Shown: positions 4,671 to 24,807 of the stretch, piece by piece
How positions within the stretch are numbered: position 1 is the first letter of the stretch
Layout of the letters: every line of letters begins with the position of its first letter
IMG/VR virus record: IMGVR_UViG_3300009132_000309
Coordinates: 1-26,036 of that record
Direction: 5' to 3' (one strand)
DNA: 26,036 bases
From: a virus
Notes under the pieces: generated by a model
The model's input: the letters and a program-made list of their open reading frames with translations, nothing else
Database searches by the model: none
What the model was told of the DNA's origin: nothing
Translations under genes and position numbers: made by a program

Positions 4671-5780
4671 ATGTTAAACTTAAAAAGAAATATATTATGT
4701 GTATTTTTATTTCTTTACTTGGGTGTAACTAATATTTATGCAGAACATACTCATAAAACAAGTATCGTTAAGAAAATCCTTCCATCTGTAGTAGAAGTAA
4801 TTGCGGAAAAGGATATGGAAAAACTTGATAAGGTTTTTACAACGAAACCGAATCAACGTCAAGGGGGATTCAAATTTAGGAATCAACCTCAACAACAACC
4901 TAATCCTAGACAACAACCGCAAAGGAGAGATGGTGATCCTAAAAAAGAACCAACACATCTTGGTTCGGGATTTGTCGTTAGTCCAACAGGTCATGTTATA
5001 ACTAACGCACACGTTATAAGTAATTGTATTGATCTTTGTTTAAAGATTACAGTTGTTTTTCATAATGAGGAATCACATGAAGCAAAATTAATAAATTATG
5101 ATGAAGATTCCGATATTGCACTATTAAAGATTATTGATACTACAAAGAACTTTGACTATTTAAAGTGGGGAAAGAAACCAGAATTAGGTGGTGATGTAAT
5201 TGCGATTGGTTCACCTATGAATCAATCTTTTACAGTTACTACAGGAATCGTATCTTCTCTTGATCGGTTCGTTCCGATGGCCGCATCATTTGTTCCGTTC
5301 ATTCAGACAGATACTGCTATAAATCCTGGCAATTCTGGTGGGCCATTATTTAATGAAAATGGAGAAGTTATTGGTATTAATACTATGATTATAACAGGTA
5401 GTGGTGGTGCAGGAGCAGGTAGTATTGGTATTGGATTTGCGATTGATGGAACGTATGCACAGTCAGTAATTGAAAAATTATATCTAGGTCATAAGATAGA
5501 AAGACCTTTTCTTGGAATCATGTATCGTCCAGTTGAAACTAAGGATTATAGAGATTCCAAACACGGTTACGGTGCATATGTACAAGAGATCGTAAAAGAT
5601 AGTCCTGCTTTTGGTGTTATCAAAGTAGGTGATATTATTTTAAAAGTTGATGGTGAGGAAGTTAAATGGAAAATGCTCGCATCAATCGTTAAAATGAAAA
5701 CTATCGGTGATACTTTAAAATTAGAAATCTTGAGAGATGGTATGCATATACCATTGGAAATGATATTAAAAGGTAAATAA
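4671..5780 (+). CDS. HtrA/DegP-like periplasmic serine protease with one PDZ domain
   Basis: A 369-residue trypsin-like protease. An N-terminal signal sequence ends near residue 24 (TNIYA/EHTH). The catalytic triad is visible: His114 in TNAHVIS, Asp148 in DEDSDIALLKI, and Ser222 in INPGNSGGPLF. A single PDZ domain occupies about residues 275-365 (LGIMYRP... VGDIILKVDGEEV). A Gln/Pro/Arg-rich stretch at about 61-92, longer than usual, separates the N-terminus from the protease fold. HtrA proteins degrade or refold misfolded periplasmic proteins. Start ATG 4671 has an AAGGAG about 8 bases upstream. An exported HtrA is unusual in a tailed phage; it could clear or mature envelope proteins during infection. 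One PDZ makes it DegS/short-HtrA-like in size. Confidence 0.92.
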   Translation: MLNLKRNILCVFLFLYLGVTNIYAEHTHKTSIVKKILPSVVEVIAEKDMEKLDKVFTTKPNQRQGGFKFRNQPQQQPNPRQQPQRRDGDPKKEPTHLGSGFVVSPTGHVITNAHVISNCIDLCLKITVVFHNEESHEAKLINYDEDSDIALLKIIDTTKNFDYLKWGKKPELGGDVIAIGSPMNQSFTVTTGIVSSLDRFVPMAASFVPFIQTDTAINPGNSGGPLFNENGEVIGINTMIITGSGGAGAGSIGIGFAIDGTYAQSVIEKLYLGHKIERPFLGIMYRPVETKDYRDSKHGYGAYVQEIVKDSPAFGVIKVGDIILKVDGEEVKWKMLASIVKMKTIGDTLKLEILRDGMHIPLEMILKGK

Positions 5781-8187: not shown

Positions 8188-9167
8188 AAATTACTATTGC
8201 AAGATTACGTTCAAACGTAAAATATAATGGGCCATTAGAAACCGTATTGGATAGTTTTTTTGAGAACTATGTAAGATGGATGAATAACAATCCACAATAT
8301 GAATATGATACTTATAATGTTTCCTTTTATAGTGATGATAGACCCAAGAGAACTCCCGAATCAATTAAAGATGCAGATGTAATAGTAATCCCTAGTGATT
8401 CAGAATTTCGTTATCATGGGGAATTGCAAATGAATCCAAAAGACCTTGCGAAGTCTGAATCTCATATAGATAATATAAGACCATATTTTGAAGGTAAGAA
8501 GGTTATTATGTGGAGATCGGATAGAGGTGATACCGAAGAATTATATAGGACAGAAACTTTAAAGGGTGTTGATTTAGATTCATTTCATACTATTGATGAA
8601 ATAGATTTCTCAGGAAATATTCATGGTATGAAATATCATTTTATACAGACCCTAACAAACCCTCTTGCAGATATGATGGGTAATGAAAAAACTATTGATT
8701 TTGCGTATTGGGGTAGAATGAAACACGGACACGATAGAGAAAAAACTATTCGTAAAATTTATAGGGATAAAGATATTTCCACAGTATTAGTTGGTGGATT
8801 TCCTTCTGGTGTAAAGAGACAGTCTGCATGGATTAAAGATTGGAAACAATTATATCCAATGTTGAAACCTGCTAGATGTACTTTGTGTTTTAATTGGTTA
8901 GACCCAAAAGCTACTACCTCTAGGTATCCCGAAGCTTTATCTATTGGTATGGTGCCGTTTGTTTGGAGAGATTATGATAGCAATAATACATATAACATTG
9001 ATTCATGGCAAAGAGTAAATACCTTTGAGGAATTTAAGGATAAGGTCATGTCTTTGGATGATTCAAAGGTTGACGAGTATAGAGAGAATTATAAGAAAGT
9101 TTTACTTTCAGAGGATCAATATTATGAAAAGTTTAGTGAAATGATGGATGGATTTTTAAATGATTGA
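8184..9167 (+). CDS. Glycosyltransferase-like protein (possible GT-B fold)
   Basis: A 327-residue protein. The N-terminal half alternates strands and helices in a Rossmann-like manner (ADVIVIPSDSE, KVIMWRSDRG). The C-terminal half contains LCFNWLDPKATTSRYPEALS followed by IGMVPFVWRDYD. A conserved Glu (Glu250) in a YPEALSIG setting before a hydrophobic strand is typical of the nucleotide-sugar-binding half of GT-B enzymes. Candidate acceptors are modified DNA bases or phage or host surface proteins; no acceptor can be read from the sequence. It overlaps both neighbours, including 8 bases with the next glycosyltransferase-like gene. Confidence 0.62.
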   Translation: MKITIARLRSNVKYNGPLETVLDSFFENYVRWMNNNPQYEYDTYNVSFYSDDRPKRTPESIKDADVIVIPSDSEFRYHGELQMNPKDLAKSESHIDNIRPYFEGKKVIMWRSDRGDTEELYRTETLKGVDLDSFHTIDEIDFSGNIHGMKYHFIQTLTNPLADMMGNEKTIDFAYWGRMKHGHDREKTIRKIYRDKDISTVLVGGFPSGVKRQSAWIKDWKQLYPMLKPARCTLCFNWLDPKATTSRYPEALSIGMVPFVWRDYDSNNTYNIDSWQRVNTFEEFKDKVMSLDDSKVDEYRENYKKVLLSEDQYYEKFSEMMDGFLND

Positions 9168-9939
9168 TAGAATTTATATTCCAACTTTAGGTAGAAGTCA
9201 TAATCAAATTACATTTGACAATATGACAAAGAACGCACAAGAAATAACTCGACTTGTGGTACAACCTAAAGAACAAGATTTATATCCAAATTATCCAATA
9301 ATTGTTTTACCTGACAATGATATTGGAATTACTGCAACTAGACGTTGGATATATAATTACGCAAGATGTCAAAAATATGGTGTTTTTGATGATGATCTTA
9401 AATTTATTGAAAGAACACCTAATGGGGAGAAATCTAAGAAACCAGTAGATTCGGATGGTTGGGATTACCTTATAAATACTACAAGTGATTGGTTAGATGA
9501 TTTCCCTTTTTCTGGATTTCGTCAAGGAAATTTGCCACCTACAGGAGTTGAGTATATAGATTCTGCTGCTGTTAATTGTGGTTTCTTTTTCAATGATAAT
9601 TTATTACCAAGTGATGAAGAACTTGATTGGTCATTACCTGTATGTGAAGATATACATATGGTTTTACAGTTCTTTAAAATGGGTTTCAATAATCGTGTAT
9701 GGGATCGGTTTGGGTATATAAGTAAAATATTAGTAGAGGGTGGATGTAATGAATGGAGAACTTTAGAACTTATTAATGATACACACGCAAAACTTATTGA
9801 GATGTACCCTAATTATGTTTCATGGAATGGGATTAGAGAAAACGTAATGGGTGGTGATTTTAAAAAGATTAAGATAAAATGGAAAAAGATGTTTACTGAT
9901 AATCAAGGTTCTACATTAGAGAATTTTATAGGGGAATAG
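9160..9939 (+). CDS. GT-A-type glycosyltransferase, TET-associated-like
   Basis: A 259-residue protein with the start IDRIYIPTLGRSHNQITFDN, then TATRRWIYNYA, then a DXD-type metal/sugar-nucleotide motif FDDDL at residues 76-80. This order resembles the TET-associated glycosyltransferase (TAGT) family described in phages that glycosylate modified pyrimidines. A later acidic segment CEDIHMVLQFF may be the catalytic-base region. The start overlaps the previous gene, so the two are probably co-translated. No hydroxymethylase or TET-like gene is visible nearby, so a DNA acceptor is an inference. Confidence 0.68.
   Translation: MIDRIYIPTLGRSHNQITFDNMTKNAQEITRLVVQPKEQDLYPNYPIIVLPDNDIGITATRRWIYNYARCQKYGVFDDDLKFIERTPNGEKSKKPVDSDGWDYLINTTSDWLDDFPFSGFRQGNLPPTGVEYIDSAAVNCGFFFNDNLLPSDEELDWSLPVCEDIHMVLQFFKMGFNNRVWDRFGYISKILVEGGCNEWRTLELINDTHAKLIEMYPNYVSWNGIRENVMGGDFKKIKIKWKKMFTDNQGSTLENFIGE

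Positions 9940-10843: not shown

Positions 10844-10847
<4 letters not shown>
10659..10847 (+). CDS. Small protein with N-terminal hydrophobic segment
   Basis: A 62-residue protein starting at ATG 10659, with an AAGGAG about 5 bases upstream; the ATG in the same frame at 10611 lies inside the previous gene. Residues 2-14 are hydrophobic (SILLMIVGLTFGS), followed by a charged region with two Cys (QCKVVQKEKQIC) that could form a disulfide after export. Its stop overlaps the start of the aldehyde dehydrogenase gene. No family is recognised. Confidence 0.6.
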
Positions 10848-12664
<1,817 letters not shown>

Positions 12665-14400: not shown

Positions 14401-14772
14401 ATGAAAGTTAATCATGTAACCCATACACCACAGTCTTTTAATTCTCTACACGGTAAACAATATCCTAGACCATACGATAATGTAATGTTATATTGTCGTT
14501 ATTGTCAAACAAGGATAGAGATTAAAGTTTATCACCCTACCGCACAACTGGAACATTACCAGTTAATCAACCTACCAGAAAGAATTGCAAAACATATGGA
14601 AGATCGTAAGGTACATTGTAAAACTTGTGATAAGGATTTTCTTCTTGAGAAACAACATAAGGAAGAAAAGTTTGACTTTCATTTAAAATTAGACTGTTCT
14701 AATATGTCGGGTGGAATGGAAGAATGGTACGAAGATTCTATTCCAAAATACTCTAATGATACTTACGCATGA
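14401..14772 (+). CDS. Zinc-ribbon-like protein of unknown function
   Basis: A 123-residue protein with two CxxC pairs, CRYC at residues 32-35 and CKTC at about 78-81, spaced as in a zinc ribbon. The region between has several aromatic residues. The rest is not recognised. An AAGGAG precedes the ATG, 13 bases after the tRNA. Its stop overlaps the next gene (ATGA), coupling it to the SbmA-like transporter. Confidence 0.68.
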   Translation: MKVNHVTHTPQSFNSLHGKQYPRPYDNVMLYCRYCQTRIEIKVYHPTAQLEHYQLINLPERIAKHMEDRKVHCKTCDKDFLLEKQHKEEKFDFHLKLDCSNMSGGMEEWYEDSIPKYSNDTYA

Positions 14773-15782
14773 TAAAATCTTTCTTTGCAAGTAAAAAATG
14801 GGCATTATGGGCATATGGTGGTTTATTGTTCATATTGGTATCTATGTGGGCACAAGTATCACTTACTGTTGCAATCAATGAATGGTATGGTGGGTTCTAT
14901 GATCTCATGCAAAAGTCAGGTGAGTATGTTAATAACCCACAAGTCGGGATAGATTTATTTTATGAAAGGTTAATATCATTTGACCTAGAGGATAAGTCAT
15001 TCTTTATGCTTGCAATGCCATTCATGCTTATTCAAACTTTTACTGATTATTTTATAAGATGGTATGGTTTACGCTGGAGAGAATCTTTGACATTTTACTA
15101 TATGCCACAATGGATGAATGTTGAGGAAGAAATTGAAGGTGCATCACAGAGAATACAAGAAGATATAAAACGATTCATAATGATACTAGAAAATCTTGGT
15201 GTCAACCTTATTCGTACTGTAATGGTTTTGATTGCATTTATTCCTTTGTTGCATGGATTAAGTGAAAAAGTAATTATTCCTTATTATGGGAGATTTGACG
15301 GAAGTTTGGTTTGGATTGCATTTGGAATATCCATTGGTGGATTGATTATTACATGGATTGTGGGTTCAAAACTCCCAGGCCTTGAATATAACAATCAGAA
15401 GGTTGAAGCTGCATTTCGTAAAGAATTGGTATTTGCAGAGGATGATAAAAAGAATTACGCAAAACCTGATACGATACTGGAATTGTTTACTGGTATCAGA
15501 ATTAATTATCAGAGACTATTTAATCATTATGGATATACCGAAGGATGGATAAATGCATATAATCAATTTATGGTTATAGTTCCTTACCTATTAGTTGGTT
15601 CGGGATTGTTTACAAAATTAATTACACTTGGGGTTGTAGTTCAAGTTTCTAATGCGTTTGGTAAAGTACATGAAGGACTCGCATTTTTCCTGTTTCGTTG
15701 GGTTTTGATAACTGAATTCCGATCCATATATAAGAGATTATCCGAATTTGAGGGGAATTTAAGACGATTTAAGACCAAATAA
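14769..15782 (+). CDS. SbmA/BacA-like inner-membrane peptide transporter
   Basis: A 337-residue membrane protein. Signature segments match SbmA/BacA proteins: KKWALWAYGG at residues 10-18, VAINEWYGGFYDLMQ at 34-48, YGLRWRESLTFYYMPQW at 99-115, and EGASQRIQEDIKRF at 123-136. Several transmembrane helices are visible (about 13-35, 78-98, 140-162, 178-199). SbmA/BacA import antimicrobial peptides and other peptides using the proton gradient and lack an ATPase domain. E. coli SbmA is about 400 residues, so this copy is shorter. It is very unusual in a phage. Its stop is followed by a hairpin that ends the transcript. Confidence 0.9.
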   Translation: MIKSFFASKKWALWAYGGLLFILVSMWAQVSLTVAINEWYGGFYDLMQKSGEYVNNPQVGIDLFYERLISFDLEDKSFFMLAMPFMLIQTFTDYFIRWYGLRWRESLTFYYMPQWMNVEEEIEGASQRIQEDIKRFIMILENLGVNLIRTVMVLIAFIPLLHGLSEKVIIPYYGRFDGSLVWIAFGISIGGLIITWIVGSKLPGLEYNNQKVEAAFRKELVFAEDDKKNYAKPDTILELFTGIRINYQRLFNHYGYTEGWINAYNQFMVIVPYLLVGSGLFTKLITLGVVVQVSNAFGKVHEGLAFFLFRWVLITEFRSIYKRLSEFEGNLRRFKTK

Positions 15783-16962: not shown

Positions 16963-18156
16963 ATGAAACATCTTGCGTTGATCGCATCCTTCTGGATGTG
17001 GAGCATATCGGTTGCATTTGCGACTGATACATTTGAAGATCGTTTTTTAAATCTTGGTGTTGATGAAGATTTCACAAAGTTAGAACGTGGAATGATTAAA
17101 GACCAAGTTAAAAACTTTATTCCCCCTTTACTAGTTCCTGCCGTTACTGGACACGCATACGTCCTACCGCCAGGTCTATTCAATTTTTCTACAAGTTTTA
17201 AATTTGTTAATGTTGATGAAGATGATTGGTATAAAGATGGTGTTAGTAGTGATCCTATTCATAGAGAGAATCAGGTTCAACGCCGTTTTTTAACGTCATC
17301 CTTAAAATATGGTTTTGATCTTAACCGAAAATACTTTCACAGTTTTACTGCGGTTGTTAACTTAACATACGAAAGTTCTGTTAATAGAGGCCCAGTACGT
17401 TTACCTGACATTGGAAACAATGCAAAGTCTGTTTTTAATACAGGAACATCCGAAGGGTTGCAAGACCTCAATATTATGATTAAGAAGAAAATTTGGGATC
17501 AAGGTAATAAACCTCTAGGATGGGCGATTGCGTTTGGAGTGTACTTACCTACTGGTGATAACAATTCTAAAGCGGGTGATAATGGTGTCATCTCTGTTAA
17601 GGATGATACAACTGGAACGGTTACTAAACCTACATTCAAAAGATTTACTGATACTGGTGAATTACCAGCAGGGAGACAATTAGGACAGGGTAACATTTCT
17701 TATAAATTTGCATCTTTTTGGACTAGACAAATGTTGCCTGGCGATATGCCCAGTTTCCTAGAAGGTACAGTATTCGATAGAATGGCCGTACATTGGGGAT
17801 TTGCGTATCGTTGGAATTCTGAACATGAAGGAGTAGATGCTGGTGATACTGCAACAATCTTTGCATCAACAGTTGTTCCAGTATATAAAGATTATTTGTC
17901 TTTACAGATGTCTCAAGTGCATAAATGGCAAGAGAACGATAGTTATGATGGAGACTTTAAATTTCCCAATGCGAGTACCGCAAAACCTAGACCCGATTTT
18001 CGAGGGGGTTGGTTGAGTTTGGTAGGGCCCAGTATAATATACAGTCCTGACCCATTGGTTCGATTTACTGCATCATACTTACATAGACTACGTGCTCCTG
18101 ATTTGGGGCCAAGTCCAAGTTATGTTGTAAACTTTAGTGCTGCTGTAACTTTCTAG
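16963..18156 (+). CDS. Outer-membrane beta-barrel protein
   Basis: A 397-residue exported protein. A signal sequence ends near residue 20 (SISVAFA/TD). The mature part has alternating hydrophobic strands ending in a C-terminal VVNFSAAVTF with terminal Phe, which is the outer-membrane insertion signal. It resembles the Phenol_MetA_deg-type transporter barrels (AFGVYLPTGDN, LGQGNISYKF). It is the first of three exported genes, with 11 bases to the next. It could be a channel for solutes or a partner of the cytochrome fusion; no substrate can be read. A barrel with a signal sequence is rare in a tailed phage. Confidence 0.85.
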   Translation: MKHLALIASFWMWSISVAFATDTFEDRFLNLGVDEDFTKLERGMIKDQVKNFIPPLLVPAVTGHAYVLPPGLFNFSTSFKFVNVDEDDWYKDGVSSDPIHRENQVQRRFLTSSLKYGFDLNRKYFHSFTAVVNLTYESSVNRGPVRLPDIGNNAKSVFNTGTSEGLQDLNIMIKKKIWDQGNKPLGWAIAFGVYLPTGDNNSKAGDNGVISVKDDTTGTVTKPTFKRFTDTGELPAGRQLGQGNISYKFASFWTRQMLPGDMPSFLEGTVFDRMAVHWGFAYRWNSEHEGVDAGDTATIFASTVVPVYKDYLSLQMSQVHKWQENDSYDGDFKFPNASTAKPRPDFRGGWLSLVGPSIIYSPDPLVRFTASYLHRLRAPDLGPSPSYVVNFSAAVTF

Positions 18157-18167
18157 GAGATTATATA

Positions 18168-20993
18168 ATGTTTAAATTGATTTTCACAATCCTGTTTTTG
18201 ATACCATCTTTAGTGAGTGCGGAATATATTATGAACGCACCAGATGGTAGGAGATTACATCTTAAAGAGGGAACTTTTCAACCTGATCTAAGTCCGTACC
18301 GAAGTAAACTTCCAGAGGTAAAAATTCTGGATAGAACTTTTAAACCAAAATACCAACAATGGGCGGCAAATGAGGAATTCGAGATTTCTCAAACTGGTTT
18401 GAATAACATGGTTCGTGCATCATTACCCCTTGCACATAACTCTGCATTTATTTGGATGACAAACCAACAAATGTATTGGAACGCAAGGAATAATTTGGGA
18501 TTTGGGTTTGCTGCTAGTCATGCTGGAATTAATTTTGTAAACGGCCCTTATTTCACTTTAAAAGCAATAGAGTTGTCAAAGTATAATCGACTCTATCGGG
18601 ATAGAGGGGAACGTACTTTGTCTAATAAAGATGTATTGTTACAATGGTACTTACCTCTAGTTTGGAAACGTGTTGGTATTCCAAGATTCCCTGATGATGG
18701 TTCTCCATCCTATTTGGAATTTGAAAGTGGTGATCCTCATTTCGTTGCACCTACTCCGATTGAAGATACGTTTAATGATCCTCAATCTGGAAAGAATGGT
18801 AAGTGGGGTGTACCAGAATATTTCCTACAAAATCGACAATGGAGATGGGATAGGGATGGAATGTCAAAATATCTTGACATGGGTAGTATTGGTATTATGT
18901 TGAAACGTGCTAGTATGTGGGTTGATTATATGTGGAAGTCAACCCATAGTGGAAAATCACCTACAACTCAAGATGCACGAATTACTCTAGCGGGTAATGA
19001 TGCGGAAGAAGGGTTTAGAGGAATGGCACTTGCAACAACTAGGGTGAATCAGGTACTTGCATTGAAATCACAGTTAGTTGCAGATGAACATGGAAAACTT
19101 GGTGGGGTTAATCCTAAGACGTATGACCCAAGAAACGGACTGAAATATTTTCCTCATAGAATATGGCCCAATTTACTACTTGCTGGAGATTTACCAGAAA
19201 GACAATGGGATTTTGAAATTGATGACCCTCGAAGTCTTTTGTTCGATCAGTCTGCATTACTTTGGGGTAATGCACATTTCTTTCAATCAACATATCGAAT
19301 GACTGAAATGTTTACAGACAATCCCCCTGTAGATGGTGGAATTCTTGAAAAGAATCTTGGTGCAGTACCACACTATCTTGCAAATATGCAGATAAAGAAT
19401 ATTGTGCAGATGCATACAAGGGATGATCTTTTAGTTTCAGAATGGGATAAGGGTACAAAATGGGAGATGAAACTCATTGATGTCGGATTGACGTTTATTG
19501 CTATGAAAGAGTATGTTGACCGTATGCGTGATCCTCAAGCATTATTGGGAAAAGATGTAGATGACCTTGAACCTGTACTAACTAAAACTGCAACAAGAAT
19601 CGTTACAAGAAATGCAGATTATCTATTAAAGTTACAGGGTGAGGATGGATCGTTTTGTCAGTCTTATGATGTTATGACCAATGATCCTATTGGTGCGTGT
19701 AACAAGTCAAGACCGAACTTTGTCGGTATCTTTGCGTTACTTGAATCGCATAAACTTACACAAGAAACCAAGTACATTGAAGGTGCAAGAAAGACTTGGA
19801 ACTATGTATGGGAAAACTATTGGGATGAACCATCAGGATTATTCCGTAGTACATTAGGTGATGATACAGTTATCATTCATGCATTGGATGTTACTGCACA
19901 ATTACGAGCATATAGAGAGATGTTGTTCGCAACACCTATCCATATGTCAAAACCATTTATTACTAAATTTTCTCGGTGGGCAGTACAAACTTTGATGATG
20001 TCGGGAATGATTCAATCTGAGGAAAATCGTAGTGGTGAACTCGGATTAGGTATAGGCACAGCAGATTGGGATAATGATGGTGTGCCGTGGTTAGGTAAGG
20101 GTGATGGTGAATTCGGTATTGCACCAACACTTGCGTTAAAAGTTGCAGTTAACATTGGTAGGGTTGGAAATAATAAATCCTTCAATGCATTGAATGGACA
20201 GAAACATTATGCAGAGATGTATGGTGGTAAGATTAAATATGCATATCAAACATCTTCCATTGATGGAATGAAATTACCAGTTAAAATGGATATGGAAGAT
20301 TGGGTAGAACGTGATGAGTTTTTAAGATGGGATGGTACAGTTATGATGTTACCCCCATCTAAAAAGTTTGAACGTGGTAGTGATTTGTCAGGGAGACAAA
20401 TATTCGAGATGAATTGTGCTCATTGCCATGGATATACTGGTGAGGGAATTACTGGAATATCTTATGCTTCGGACTCTTTGGTGAGAACTAGAGATGATAT
20501 GTTTGAAGTTCCTAACAATGGAAGATTTACTCGACTGATGCCAGAGTGGGGTATTGGTAACAGGGATGAACATGGTGGGGTATTAACCAAAGATGAAATC
20601 TATAAAATAGTTGATTACATTCAGAGTGATGGATTTAAGAAAGTATTTAAGGATGTTCAAAAGGGTTATGCATTACCTAATTATCCCCCTAAAGACCCTT
20701 ACTTCTTTATCTCTAGGTCTTATGATATGGGTAAGAAGAAACCAGCAACAAAAGAGGATATTGCATTAATTATGAATTTGCAAAGAGATGTCTCTAAAAC
20801 TGGTAAACCTGTTAATATCATTAAACGACTTATTGATGCAGAACATAATGGGGGTGCAAAAGGTCAGGTAAAAACTGCGACAGGATGGAATGATGAAAGT
20901 TATGGTGCAATTCTATCCTACGACAATAAGTTACAAATGCATTATGCAACAAAACCATTAATTATTATTGAGGAGACAGAAGAAGATGAATAA
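18168..20993 (+). CDS. Exported 941-residue protein: alpha-helical barrel-like region fused to a cytochrome c domain
   Basis: A 941-residue exported protein, signal sequence ending near residue 18 (IPSLVSA/EY). The long middle part (about 60-700) is helix-rich with repeated Trp/Leu-rich segments, suggestive of a six-hairpin (alpha/alpha) toroid, but no catalytic residue is clear. At residues 739-830 lies a single-haem cytochrome c domain: SGRQIFEMNCAHCHGYTGEG with CAHCH at 750-754, then an RLMPEWG where Met791 is the likely sixth haem ligand. A C-terminal region of about 100 residues follows. It would act in the periplasm; the host cytochrome maturation system would be needed. An AGGAG precedes ATG 18168. 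Its stop overlaps the next gene. The family of the long domain is not recognised. Confidence 0.85.
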   Translation: MFKLIFTILFLIPSLVSAEYIMNAPDGRRLHLKEGTFQPDLSPYRSKLPEVKILDRTFKPKYQQWAANEEFEISQTGLNNMVRASLPLAHNSAFIWMTNQQMYWNARNNLGFGFAASHAGINFVNGPYFTLKAIELSKYNRLYRDRGERTLSNKDVLLQWYLPLVWKRVGIPRFPDDGSPSYLEFESGDPHFVAPTPIEDTFNDPQSGKNGKWGVPEYFLQNRQWRWDRDGMSKYLDMGSIGIMLKRASMWVDYMWKSTHSGKSPTTQDARITLAGNDAEEGFRGMALATTRVNQVLALKSQLVADEHGKLGGVNPKTYDPRNGLKYFPHRIWPNLLLAGDLPERQWDFEIDDPRSLLFDQSALLWGNAHFFQSTYRMTEMFTDNPPVDGGILEKNLGAVPHYLANMQIKNIVQMHTRDDLLVSEWDKGTKWEMKLIDVGLTFIAMKEYVDRMRDPQALLGKDVDDLEPVLTKTATRIVTRNADYLLKLQGEDGSFCQSYDVMTNDPIGACNKSRPNFVGIFALLESHKLTQETKYIEGARKTWNYVWENYWDEPSGLFRSTLGDDTVIIHALDVTAQLRAYREMLFATPIHMSKPFITKFSRWAVQTLMMSGMIQSEENRSGELGLGIGTADWDNDGVPWLGKGDGEFGIAPTLALKVAVNIGRVGNNKSFNALNGQKHYAEMYGGKIKYAYQTSSIDGMKLPVKMDMEDWVERDEFLRWDGTVMMLPPSKKFERGSDLSGRQIFEMNCAHCHGYTGEGITGISYASDSLVRTRDDMFEVPNNGRFTRLMPEWGIGNRDEHGGVLTKDEIYKIVDYIQSDGFKKVFKDVQKGYALPNYPPKDPYFFISRSYDMGKKKPATKEDIALIMNLQRDVSKTGKPVNIIKRLIDAEHNGGAKGQVKTATGWNDESYGAILSYDNKLQMHYATKPLIIIEETEEDE

Positions 20994-21873
20994 CATTTTG
21001 AAGATTTTACTACAATCTATTGCTATCATTGGACTCATTTTTGTAGCATTTAGTATATCGGATGCAAAACCGAAATACAAAGAAATTGAGATAAAAAACG
21101 GTACTACTCTAAAAGGTAAAGTAACTTGGATGGGTAAGATTCCAACACTACCGAAGATCACCGTATTCAAACATATGGATAAGTGTGGTCAAGAGGTTGT
21201 AAATCCAGCACTACAAGTCAATCCTTCTAACAAGGGAGTAAAGTTTACCGTTGTCTATCTTGAGAAAGTTAAAGAGGGTAAACCACTAAATCAGGATAAA
21301 CTCAAGGTTGGGAGACAAGGGGTACTTCATGCTGGATTGGACAAAAAACAGCAACCTGATAGTCAGTTGTGTAATTTCCAAGAACACGTTTTTGCATTTG
21401 TAAGAACAAAAAGAATTGGAATGTATAACATGGAAGATTTACTACATAATCCTCATGCATTTGGTTCTAATGGTGCAACACTTTTTAATGTTCCATTACC
21501 TGATAGGAATAGAATGACTAAGAAGAAATTTAAACGTGTTAAAGGTGTCAACCGATACCAATGTGATACTCATATTCATATGAACGGTTGGATGCATGGA
21601 TTCGATCATCCTTACTTTGCGGTTACTGATGCGAATGGGAACTATGAAATCACAGATGTTCCGAATGGTGAGTATAACCTAATTACATGGCATGAAGGAT
21701 ATAACATTGAATCTTTTGCAGAGGACAAAAGACCTGTATATGATGCACCTCATGTTATAAATACAAAAATAAATGTTAAGGATGGGGAAGTATTGAAATT
21801 GGATTTTCAACTACCAGTTCGAGAGGTAGAGGTTAATCAAAAGAAAATGTCCAGACAAGTTTCTGGACATTGA
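20986..21873 (+). CDS. Exported Cys/His/Met-rich protein, methylamine-utilization/carboxypeptidase-regulatory-like
   Basis: A 295-residue exported protein (signal sequence ending near residue 27, SISDA/KP). The start at 20986 has GAGGAG about 10 bases upstream and overlaps the cytochrome-fusion stop. The N-terminal region GTTLKGKVTWMGKIP and a Cys67 in DKCGQE resemble the beta-sandwich at the head of this family. A cluster YQCDTHIHMNGWMHGFDHPY (Cys193, His196, His198, Met199, Met203, His204, His208) looks metal-binding, followed by FAVTDANGNYEITDVPNGEY, a carboxypeptidase-regulatory-like repeat. Related proteins sit beside cytochromes in bacteria. I infer a copper- or haem-linked electron-transfer partner of the upstream cytochrome fusion. 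Confidence 0.78.
   Translation: MNNILKILLQSIAIIGLIFVAFSISDAKPKYKEIEIKNGTTLKGKVTWMGKIPTLPKITVFKHMDKCGQEVVNPALQVNPSNKGVKFTVVYLEKVKEGKPLNQDKLKVGRQGVLHAGLDKKQQPDSQLCNFQEHVFAFVRTKRIGMYNMEDLLHNPHAFGSNGATLFNVPLPDRNRMTKKKFKRVKGVNRYQCDTHIHMNGWMHGFDHPYFAVTDANGNYEITDVPNGEYNLITWHEGYNIESFAEDKRPVYDAPHVINTKINVKDGEVLKLDFQLPVREVEVNQKKMSRQVSGH
21848..21869 (+). other. Hairpin at the end of the coding region, before the tmRNA
   Basis: TGTCCAG (21848-21854) pairs with CTGGACA (21863-21869) around an 8-base loop. It is inside the last codons of the upstream gene and has no T tract after it. It may mark processing of the tmRNA precursor or be a coding coincidence. A weak -35/-10 pair (TGGACA at 21864, TATATT at 21889, 19-base spacing) overlaps it. 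Confidence 0.35.
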
Positions 21874-21889
21874 TTGTCGTATATCTGTT

Positions 21890-22115
21890 ATATTTGAAAC
21901 ATATTGGACAGGGGTTCGATTCCCCTCTCCTACACCAAAACCTACAATATGTGGGAGAATTGGTTTCGACAGTATGAGGGAGAATATCACGGCGACAGGA
22001 TGTGAGTGTGGCATCCTAAAAACACTCAACAACTAAACGCAAACTCTAACGAGTATGCATTGGCTGCGTAAGTAGTCGGAGTCCGAGGGTACTTGGCAAC
22101 AGAAACCCTCACAGC
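21890..22115 (+). ncRNA. ssrA: Circularly permuted two-piece tmRNA (ssrA), with tag ANSNEYALAA
   Basis: tmRNA rescues stalled ribosomes by acting as tRNA-Ala and then as an mRNA for a degradation tag. The acceptor half comes first: T arm AGGGG-TTCGATT-CCCCT (21910-21926), acceptor strand CTCCTAC, discriminator A and CCA (to 21937). A 13-base intervening segment follows. The coding half starts GTGGGAG (21951-21957), pairing with the acceptor strand as 7 bp including G3-U70, the alanine identity pair. The D-like TTTCGAC follows. P2 pairs CAGTATG (21970-21976) with CATATTG (21900-21906). Pseudoknot PK1 pairs 21997-22002 with 22012-22017 and 22004-22009 with 22022-22027. The tag frame GCA...TAA is 22039-22071. 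A hairpin GAGGGT/ACCCTC (22085-22110) closes it. The outer ends are approximate. Confidence 0.93.
22039..22071 (+). other. tmRNA tag reading frame (ANSNEYALAA, stop)
   Basis: Eleven codons from the resume codon GCA to TAA give ANSNEYALAA. The C-terminal ALAA is the classical ClpXP/ClpAP recognition end, and AN plus YALAA match the E. coli tag ANDENYALAA. It lies just after PK1, where the tag is expected. Confidence 0.92.
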
Positions 22116-22125
22116 TATAGAATTA

Positions 22126-22200
22126 GCGGGTGTAGCTCAGAGGCAGAGCAGTACGTTGCCAACGTACAGGTCAGGATTTCAAAATTCCTCACCCGCTCCA
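22126..22200 (+). tRNA. tRNA-Gly (anticodon GCC)
   Basis: Acceptor GCGGGTG (22126-22132) pairs with CACCCGC before T and an encoded CCA; D stem GCTC/GAGC; anticodon stem GTACG/CGTAC with loop TTGCCAA, anticodon GCC for GGC/GGT codons; T arm AGGAT-TTCAAAA-TTCCT, where the usual G53-C61 pair is a T-T mismatch. It begins about 15 bases after the tmRNA closing hairpin, so both probably come from one precursor. Confidence 0.9.
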
Positions 22201-22524: not shown

Positions 22525-22553
22525 AGGGGTATGGGAAACCATACCCCTTTTTT
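22525..22553 (+). terminator. Rho-independent terminator
   Basis: AGGGGTATGG (22525-22534) pairs perfectly with CCATACCCCT (22539-22548) around a GAAA tetraloop, then a T run to 22553. It is a textbook terminator for the small basic protein gene and lies five bases before the next start codon. Confidence 0.9.
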
Positions 22554-22557
22554 AATT

Positions 22558-23058
22558 ATGAAATACTTATTGATTGTTATTTCCTTTTTGTTCTTGACAG
22601 GATTTTCTAAACAAGAAACTACTTGTCTTGCACAAAACATCTATTTTGAAGCAAGAGATCAAAATATTAAAGGACAAATTGCAGTTGCATTAGTTACTAT
22701 AAATAGAGTAAAGAGTAAAAGATTTCCAAATACGTTTTGTAAAGTAGTAAAACAAGCAAGATATAGGAATGGTAGGTTAGTTAAACATAAGTGTCATTTC
22801 AGTTGGTTTTGTGATGGTTTATCTGATATACCTAAAGATAGGATTGCATGGAAAGTCTCTTTAACTATTGCAAATGCTATGTTAGAACATTCTGGTTCTC
22901 ATATATCAAAGAACGGTACAAAATGGAAGGTCAATGATTTTTTGAATGGTGCAACACACTATCATAGATCAGACGTTAATCCATATTGGAATCGTAATAT
23001 GTTAAAAGTTGCAGAGATTGGGAATCACATATTTTACATTGATCCATATAGATTTTAA
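22558..23058 (+). CDS. SleB-like cell-wall hydrolase (Hydrolase_2 family), exported
   Basis: A 166-residue protein from ATG 22558, with a signal sequence (KYLLIVISFLFLTGFS). The catalytic-domain start is typical of SleB/CwlJ: CLAQNIYFEARDQ, with Glu31 as the candidate catalytic residue, then KGQIAVALVTINRVKSKRFP, CHFSWFCDG and the C-terminal GATHYHRSDVNPYW. These enzymes cut peptidoglycan, here probably for lysis. There is no Shine-Dalgarno and the ATG lies five bases after the terminator T run. An in-frame ATG at 22531 would start within the terminator stem. Start chosen for the signal sequence. Confidence 0.88.
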   Translation: MKYLLIVISFLFLTGFSKQETTCLAQNIYFEARDQNIKGQIAVALVTINRVKSKRFPNTFCKVVKQARYRNGRLVKHKCHFSWFCDGLSDIPKDRIAWKVSLTIANAMLEHSGSHISKNGTKWKVNDFLNGATHYHRSDVNPYWNRNMLKVAEIGNHIFYIDPYRF

Positions 23059-23075: not shown

Positions 23076-23630
23076 ATGTCAGAGAAAAAAGAAAAACAAT
23101 CATTAACTCCCGAAGAAAAGGGTGTTTACCTTTTCATGGAAGAAGTAAATACAGAAACGTGCAAAGAACTTATTTCGTTTATTCTTACTAAAAGTTTTCA
23201 AAGACCAAGACCTAAGAGTTTACAGATTATTATTAATTCGCCTGGTGGTGATTTGAATGCTGCTTTTGCAGTTATAGATATTATGAGGGGTTGTCCTATA
23301 CCAGTTCATACAGTTGGTTTAGGACAAATTGCATCTGCTGGGTTTATGATTTTTATTGCTGGGAAAAAGGGTGAAAGGATTTTAACTCCTAATACTTCTA
23401 TTATGTCTCATCAATGGAGTTGGGGTTCATGGGGTAAAGAACATGAATTGGTTGCAGTAAGTAAAGAACATGACTTAACATCTCAAAGGATGGTCAATCA
23501 TTATAAAAAATGTACTGGTATGACTGAACAGAAAATACGAAAATATCTATTACCCGCTACAGATGTTTGGATGTCTGCGAAAGAAGCATTAAAACTAAAA
23601 TGTTGCGACAAAATAAAGGATTTTAAATGA
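23076..23630 (+). CDS. ClpP-like serine protease (phage ClpP/Clp-protease-like)
   Basis: A 184-residue protein with the ClpP fold: INSPGGDLNAAFAVIDIM for the oxyanion region, nucleophile Ser87 in GQIASAGFMI, His112 in IMSHQWSWG, and Asp163 in ATDVWMSAKEAL, the full triad. GAGGA lies about 8 bases before the ATG. ClpP-like proteins are common in T4-like marine phages, either as a prohead-type protease or to use the host Clp unfoldases. It is about 10 residues shorter than bacterial ClpP and is followed directly by the gp33 gene with a four-base overlap. Confidence 0.9.
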   Translation: MSEKKEKQSLTPEEKGVYLFMEEVNTETCKELISFILTKSFQRPRPKSLQIIINSPGGDLNAAFAVIDIMRGCPIPVHTVGLGQIASAGFMIFIAGKKGERILTPNTSIMSHQWSWGSWGKEHELVAVSKEHDLTSQRMVNHYKKCTGMTEQKIRKYLLPATDVWMSAKEALKLKCCDKIKDFK

Positions 23631-23836
23631 GTATAGATGTTAATGCGACTATTGAGAAATTAGTTATTGAAAAGAAAATATCATATATGGATGCGGTTGT
23701 TCATTATACAGATGATGTTGATTGTGAGATTGAAATGGTTGCAAAAATGTTGAATAGGTCTATTAAGGATAAACTGGAAGCAGAAGCACAAGACTTGAAT
23801 ATGATGAAAAAGAAATGTTCAAGACTTCCTTTGTAA
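23627..23836 (+). CDS. 33: Late-transcription co-activator gp33
   Basis: A 69-residue protein with the gp33 pattern of T4-like marine phages: SIDVNATIEKLVIEKKISYM, AVVHYTDDVDCEIEMVAKML, then RSIKDKLEAEAQDLNM and the ending SRLPL. gp33 bridges the sliding clamp and the host RNA polymerase to activate late promoters. The ATG overlaps the ClpP-like stop. It lies immediately upstream of gp32, as in T4, which supports the call. Confidence 0.88.
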   Translation: MSIDVNATIEKLVIEKKISYMDAVVHYTDDVDCEIEMVAKMLNRSIKDKLEAEAQDLNMMKKKCSRLPL

Positions 23837-23907: not shown

Positions 23908-24807
23908 ATGGCTACAAATTTTGCAGATTTAAAGAAGAACAAAGCAAATAAGTTTGAATCTTTGGTTCAACAATCAGAGAAGTTGAACGAAAAAGTATCA
24001 TACGTTGATGAACGTATCTGGAAATGTGAACGTGATAAGAACGGTAATGGATATGCAGTTATTCGTTTTCTTCCCGAATGTAAGGGTGAGACAAATGATT
24101 TTGTTACAATGTTCACTCATGGGTTTAAAGGGCCTGGTGGGTGGTATATTGAGAATTGTCTAACGACACCAGTTAAAGGGGCACCAAAAGGATTTGATGA
24201 TCCTGTTGCACAATCTAATAGTAAGTTGTGGAATTCTGGTATTGAGTCAGATAAAAATATTGCGAGAGATCGTAAACGTAAACAGAATTTCTATTCTAAT
24301 ATTCTGGTTATCGAAGATTCCGCAAATAAAGAGAATGAAGGTAAAGTCTTTTTGTTTAGGTATGGTAAGAAGATTTTCGATAAGACACAACAAGTATTAA
24401 AACCCGAATTTGCAGATGAAGTTGGTTTTAATCCATTCGACTTTTGGGATGGTGCAAACTTCAAGATCAAAATCCGTCAGGTAGATGGATATGCGAATTA
24501 TGATAAGTCTGAATTCTGCGAACCATCTGCATTGTTTGATGGGGATGAAGAAAAGATTAAGAAGGTTTGGGAATCACAATATTCTTTGGAAGAACTGTTG
24601 AGTCCTGATAAGTTTAAATCTTATGCAGAATTAAATGCAAGGTTTAAAACTGTTACTGGTGGTCATAGTGCGGATTATGCTGAGACTATTGAGGAAAGTG
24701 CAGAACCAGTTGCAGTATCTTCAAACTCTGCACCGTCAGAGAATTCTGAAAGTGAACCGAATAATGATGAAACAATGGATTACTTTAAGAAACTAGCAGA
24801 TCAGTAA
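23908..24807 (+). CDS. 32: Single-stranded DNA-binding protein gp32
   Basis: A 299-residue SSB of the T4 gp32 type. The basic N-terminal LKKNKANKFESL is the cooperativity region; the core contains YAVIRFLPECKGETNDFVTM, THGFKGPGGWYIENCLTT and RKRKQNFYSNILVIEDSANK; the C-terminus is acidic and Ser/Glu-rich (about 255-299) for partner binding. The complete T4 zinc Cys/His set is not seen; one His and one Cys remain in that region, as in marine relatives. An AAGGAG precedes ATG 23908. Neighbour of gp33 as in T4. Confidence 0.95.
   Translation: MATNFADLKKNKANKFESLVQQSEKLNEKVSYVDERIWKCERDKNGNGYAVIRFLPECKGETNDFVTMFTHGFKGPGGWYIENCLTTPVKGAPKGFDDPVAQSNSKLWNSGIESDKNIARDRKRKQNFYSNILVIEDSANKENEGKVFLFRYGKKIFDKTQQVLKPEFADEVGFNPFDFWDGANFKIKIRQVDGYANYDKSEFCEPSALFDGDEEKIKKVWESQYSLEELLSPDKFKSYAELNARFKTVTGGHSADYAETIEESAEPVAVSSNSAPSENSESEPNNDETMDYFKKLADQ

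Follow-up and report, generated by a model that had tools for sequence, protein, structure and literature searches.

We identified a complete and intact gene for a circularly permuted (two-piece) transfer-messenger RNA, ssrA, in a 26,036-nt stretch of DNA, hereafter the window, which is a 26-kb fragment of a marine T4-like (Kyanoviridae-related) bacteriophage. tmRNA releases stalled ribosomes and marks incomplete proteins for degradation. The gene occupies 21875..22112 on the plus strand, as do all of its parts described below. ARAGORN calls a permuted tmRNA with the tag ANSNEYALAA, and the Rfam model RF04321 (tmRNA_permuted) matches full-length at 21875-22071 with 115.6 bits (E 3e-22), against a gathering threshold of 47; RF01850 (beta_tmRNA) scores 89.2 bits on the same locus. 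An earlier note, made from the sequence alone, had proposed a complete permuted tmRNA with the alanine pair G3-U70 and suggested a covariance-model search as a check, and both the ARAGORN call and the RF04321 score bear the proposal out. The note had the locus right, but starting it at 21890 leaves off the 5' strand of distal P2, whose first base is 21875.

The acceptor half (21875..21937), recognized by reading the sequence and by pairing in relatives, precedes the coding half (21951..22112), for which sequence, Rfam and pairing agree; a 13-nt intervening spacer (21938..21950) lies between them. The acceptor half opens with TGTCG (21875-21879), one strand of distal P2, its partner being CGACA at 21993-21997. 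It continues with the proximal P2 strand CATATTG (21900-21906, pairing with CAGTATG at 21970-21976), the T arm (21910-21926, with the T stem at 21910-21914/21922-21926), the 3' strand of the acceptor stem, CTCCTAC (21927-21933), A73 (21934) and an encoded CCA (21935-21937). The coding half starts at G1 with the acceptor 5' strand GTGGGAG (21951-21957) and contains the D-loop motif TGGTTTCGAC. Across the permutation the acceptor stem closes with seven of seven pairs (G1-C72, U2-A71, G3-U70, G4-C69, G5-C68, A6-U67 and G7-C66), among which U2-A71 is rare, most phage copies having G2-C71. Further into the coding half lie an H-type pseudoknot (21998..22027; stems GGATG/CATCC and GAGTGT/ACACTC), the tag reading frame (22039..22071) and a 3' hairpin, GAGGGT/ACCCTC, enclosing a conserved AACAGAA (22085..22110). 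The tag frame has its resume codon, a TAA stop and a hydrophobic end, the latter a putative protease-recognized signal. The locus folds with z = -3.6, and the score of the pseudoknot region was reached by none of 40 mononucleotide shuffles of that region of the window. Every part that the earlier note had listed (7-bp acceptor stem, 13-nt spacer, P2, H-type pseudoknot, ANSNEYALAA and closing hairpin) could be located.

Every helix examined covaries among relatives. Sister loci (numbered here with the prefix L) were gathered via gp32, ClpP and tmRNA patterns. The acceptor stem forms 7/7 pairs across the permutation in 31 sister or related phage genes, including those of phages Melnitz and Mosig, a count that leans slightly towards pairing because the script picking G1 tolerated a few offsets; these stems span several different sequences. 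Of 32 sequences, 30 keep six or seven of the seven proximal P2 pairs, and this helix shows compensatory changes such as CAGTATG/CATATTG versus TTTCAGG/CTTGAAA. A pseudoknot of the same layout is found in most clade members, both of its stems varying on both sides, and the 3' hairpin, present in all of them, likewise varies on both sides. Among 20 unique ten-codon tag DNAs, Ala7, Ala9 and Ala10 are invariant while using four, three and three codons, respectively, and only Leu, Ile, Met or Val is found at position 8. Tyr4 occurs in 19 of the 20, encoded by both TAT and TAC; the window tag, with Asn at position 4, is the sole exception. This comparison shows, at the level of sequence, a tag peptide under purifying selection, and because the peptide is kept while its codons drift, selection acts on the gene as a tmRNA.

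The sister genes also differ from one another in several respects. In some, the T loop is not TTCGATT although the tmRNA is otherwise conserved: GGCAGTA is found in L299, L304, L305, L309, L313, L291, L300 and L262, TGCAATT in L006, L316 and L320-L322, and a TATCGTAT-type loop in L302 and L310. Such variant genes often combine AG in place of the D-loop GG with a G at position 55; this may be a tertiary covariation. ARAGORN misses the sister genes in L291, L300, L302, L310, L311, L312 and L315; counts of phage tmRNAs that are based on ARAGORN are therefore too low. Spacers among relatives range from 1 to about 140 nt, the window having 13. In L320 (about 2470-2778) a single nucleotide separates CCA from G1, and L314 and L315 encode no CCA, their A73 being followed by a 5-nt gap, CTTAC. 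About 70 nt (GATGCTGACTA...GGATCAGCGACTCCTCAAGTTA) are conserved among the longer spacers of L006, L010, L012, L289, L293 and L333; no Rfam family or known riboswitch was found for this stretch when the L289 spacer was searched.

The T4-like setting that the earlier note described was recovered, with T4 RNase H, exonuclease phrog_298, dNMP kinase, gp33 (phrog_254) and gp32 as markers. Directly 3' of the tmRNA, on the same strand, ARAGORN places a tRNA-Gly (GCC) at 22126..22200, found in the same place in many sisters. It is followed, also on the plus strand, by a cell-wall hydrolase or endolysin (22549..23058; Pfam PF07486, phrog_938), a ClpP-family serine protease (23076..23630), a gp33-type late transcription regulator (23627..23836; phrog_254) and a T4-like gp32 single-stranded DNA-binding protein (23908..24807; PF08804). 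The order tmRNA - (tRNA-Gly) - small ORF - endolysin - ClpP - gp33 - gp32 recurs in sister phages, and the slot is kept across a diverse T4-like clade with gp32 identities down to about 61% (about 47% for Melnitz and Mosig). Only weak sites were obtained in a search for a sigma-70 promoter before the tmRNA gene. A 10-bp hairpin sits just 5' of the gene at 21846-21871, and its T-run falls on the minus strand. It recurs in L289, where a compensatory change has turned TGTCCAG/CTGGACA into TGCCCAG/CTGGGCA. Elsewhere the window encodes an HtrA-type protease with a PDZ domain, an aldehyde dehydrogenase, an SbmA/BacA-like transporter and a TET-associated glycosyltransferase (4671-5780, 10844-12328, 14769-15782 and 9160-9939, respectively).

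How might the phage use this RNA? Very probably, the gene is a working phage ssrA of the permuted form, charged by host enzymes and dependent on host SmpB, that rescues ribosomes during infection. By analogy with established tmRNA biology, host RNase P and trimming enzymes would process the precursor into two RNAs, acceptor and coding, that stay joined via the acceptor stem and P2. Host AlaRS would charge the tmRNA through G3-U70 and A73, and with the help of host SmpB it would reach ribosomes stuck on broken mRNA. Translation would then resume at 22039, appending AANSNEYALAA, the ALAA end of which would suit recognition by ClpX or ClpA for proteolysis. The likely benefit is that ribosome recycling is maintained while transcripts degrade during infection. 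SmpB was not found in Melnitz, Mosig, a near-identical contig of 56.9 kb or the other large records of phages, so it would come from the host, although the window is a fragment and an SmpB gene may lie elsewhere in the genome of its phage. The weakest step of the scheme is the last: the protease may be provided, or altered, by the ClpP that the phage encodes about 1 kb downstream.

The ClpP-like gene had been noticed by the earlier note as well, and its product belongs to the S14 family: it matches PF00574 (1.1e-30) and ClpP entries of the PDB, and motif alignment recovers the catalytic Ser, His and Asp. The protein can be regarded as a ClpP-family protease with a predicted active-site triad. 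A profile built from the phage ClpPs found in this analysis detected a ClpP-like ORF in 20 of 168 ARAGORN-confirmed loci; 16 of these ORFs follow the tmRNA on its own strand, 14 of them within about 1.6 kb. For comparison, counting both strands, the downstream same-strand 250 bp account for about 1.4% of the sequence searched, and the 1.6-kb stretch for about 7.6%. The distance is 0.9-1.6 kb in the window clade (up to 2 kb in L010) and about 1-3.7 kb, downstream and on the same strand, in a second T4-like set, while clpP starts within about 165 bp of the tmRNA in the L179/L186-type group, L142 and the L085/L096 group. The linked sets are the window-type and the related T4-like phages, L179/L186/L247/L250/L254, L142 (a 316-kb phage) and L085/L094/L096. 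Their proteases are 21-42% identical between sets; those of L142 and L096 are 48% identical, and for this reason L142 and L085/L094/L096 may form one group. The linkage is suggestive only, because the distance thresholds were picked after the data had been seen and the lineages are few.

It is conceivable, though doubtful, that the phage tmRNA and the phage ClpP act as a pair which, together with a host Clp ATPase, tags and destroys truncated host or phage proteins. This would be an extension of the host-assisted rescue proposed above and not its opposite. The same-strand clpP downstream of a permuted tmRNA in the phage sets above argues for such a pair. So do Synechococcus phage BUCT-ZZ01 and Sinorhizobium phage Phosso, the two isolates whose ClpP is most similar: both carry a permuted tmRNA, but in these two phages it lies far from clpP. 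A tmRNA of either form was present in just four of ten ClpP-bearing isolates and in none of six ClpP-less cyanophages, a small and non-random sample, and the PHROG that best matches the window ClpP is named head maturation protease. Moreover, clpP was looked for in Melnitz and Mosig and is absent from both; since these phages have a tmRNA, ClpP is not required. No link between phage tmRNA and ClpP was found in the open-licence papers searched. That unrelated phage groups independently paired a permuted tmRNA with a ClpP of their own, the host lending only SmpB and the Clp ATPase, seems rather unlikely. The more general suggestion of the earlier note, that tagged proteins could be fed to Clp, is plausible, with the clpP linkage as circumstantial support.

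Alternatively, the phage RNA could be a decoy that titrates host SmpB or blocks host tmRNA instead of tagging. A decoy role has been proposed for the RNA of mycobacteriophage DS6A, which consists of a tRNA-like domain only (PMC4131195), and the failure to find SmpB in the phage records tested would fit it. Nonetheless, we consider this improbable: a decoy would need only the tRNA-like domain, yet the tag frame, resume region, stop and pseudoknot are all kept while synonymous codons drift. Integration at bacterial ssrA is common and ssrA fragments occur in prophages (PMC9004378), but a recently captured host gene or functionless excision scar is scarcely credible here, given the same slot throughout a diverse T4-like clade and in Melnitz and Mosig, the compensatory changes in all helices examined, and a U2-A71 pattern unmatched in bacterial genomes.

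As for the origin of the gene, the earlier note had called the permuted form the alphaproteobacterial arrangement. This is too narrow, as betaproteobacteria and cyanobacteria share the form (PMC11915505) and the best clade-specific Rfam model for the window is beta. The best model is also beta for L012 and alpha for L006 and L007, and the Melnitz gene was grouped with SAR11 and other alphaproteobacteria (PMC9004378); no single bacterial clade appears clearly to be the source of the window tmRNA. Searching for a bacterial source with the U2-A71 pattern turned up nothing across 84,980 species of bacteria and archaea. Beside the tmRNA, at 16963-21873, lies a module of porin-like outer-membrane, 941-aa cytochrome-c-containing and 301-aa carboxypeptidase-regulatory-like genes. 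The latter two have adjacent homologues, 57-71% identical, on the Nitrospinota MAG contigs L261 and L276, small contigs that may themselves be viral. The 941-aa protein had one Nitrospinota MAG match among the genome contigs searched, and strong matches, on small contigs, in two of 77 Nitrospinota genomes. No permuted tmRNA scored above the cut-off in Nitrospinota genomes, which have a standard one-piece tmRNA instead. Nitrospinota as the host is no more than a weak hint.

Permuted tmRNA in phages is of a kind already known and common, and phage tmRNAs cannot be called few, as the earlier note had it. The two-piece tmRNA of the marine myophage Melnitz was reported in 2022 together with a survey in which 53 of 133 unique phage tmRNA structures were two-piece (PMC9004378), and 79 phage tmRNA sequences are listed in the study that built RF04321 (PMC11915505). 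Our two pattern scans of IMG/VR gave 64 + 115 = 179 stretches, some of which may be host sequence within viral contigs; of the 177 loci that these scans newly brought in, 168 were confirmed by ARAGORN as permuted tmRNA genes. Acceptor pairing was full in 171 of 176 parsed rows (the fetched loci plus the window, some being repeat copies of one contig); since the pattern fixed G1, G3, U70 and C72, invariance there is no evidence and only the other positions are informative. The window had no direct nucleotide match in the phage collection. What is new is the large marine T4-like clade that keeps the tmRNA with endolysin, ClpP, gp33 and gp32, as many as three further phage groups with clpP just downstream of a permuted tmRNA, the lack of SmpB in any phage record tested, and the odd T loops and spacers of the sisters. 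Phage control of ribosome rescue is a barely tested field. A clade with many natural variants of tag, T loop and spacer and a linked protease gene offers a concrete system for asking whether ribosome rescue serves the phage itself and whether tagged proteins are steered to the phage's own ClpP.

Several known systems can be set beside this gene. In huge phages, tmRNA and SmpB are phage-encoded parts of ribosome rescue, as is the tmRNA of the window; some of these phages encode SmpB too (PMC7162821), in contrast to the phage records tested here. The one-piece tmRNAs of mycobacteriophages Bxz1 and Wildcat and of Bacillus phage G (PMC4131195) are likewise complete and carry a degradation tag, but they are not permuted and their phages are unrelated to that of the window. 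Among the Rfam families RF04321, RF01849, RF01850 and RF01851, the window matches RF04321 over its full length, differing in its short 13-nt spacer and in U2-A71. The closest parallels are the Methylophilales phage Melnitz (MZ577097) and the Pelagibacter phage Mosig (MT647606), T4-like marine Kyanoviridae that also have a permuted ssrA (PMC9004378). Melnitz, for which a glutamine riboswitch has been published (PMC9004378), differs in its tag (ANDNYVPVDYALAA), its GGCAGTA T loop and its long spacer, and both phages lack the clpP that the window has. Nevertheless, in both of them ssrA lies upstream of gp33 and gp32, syntenic with the window.
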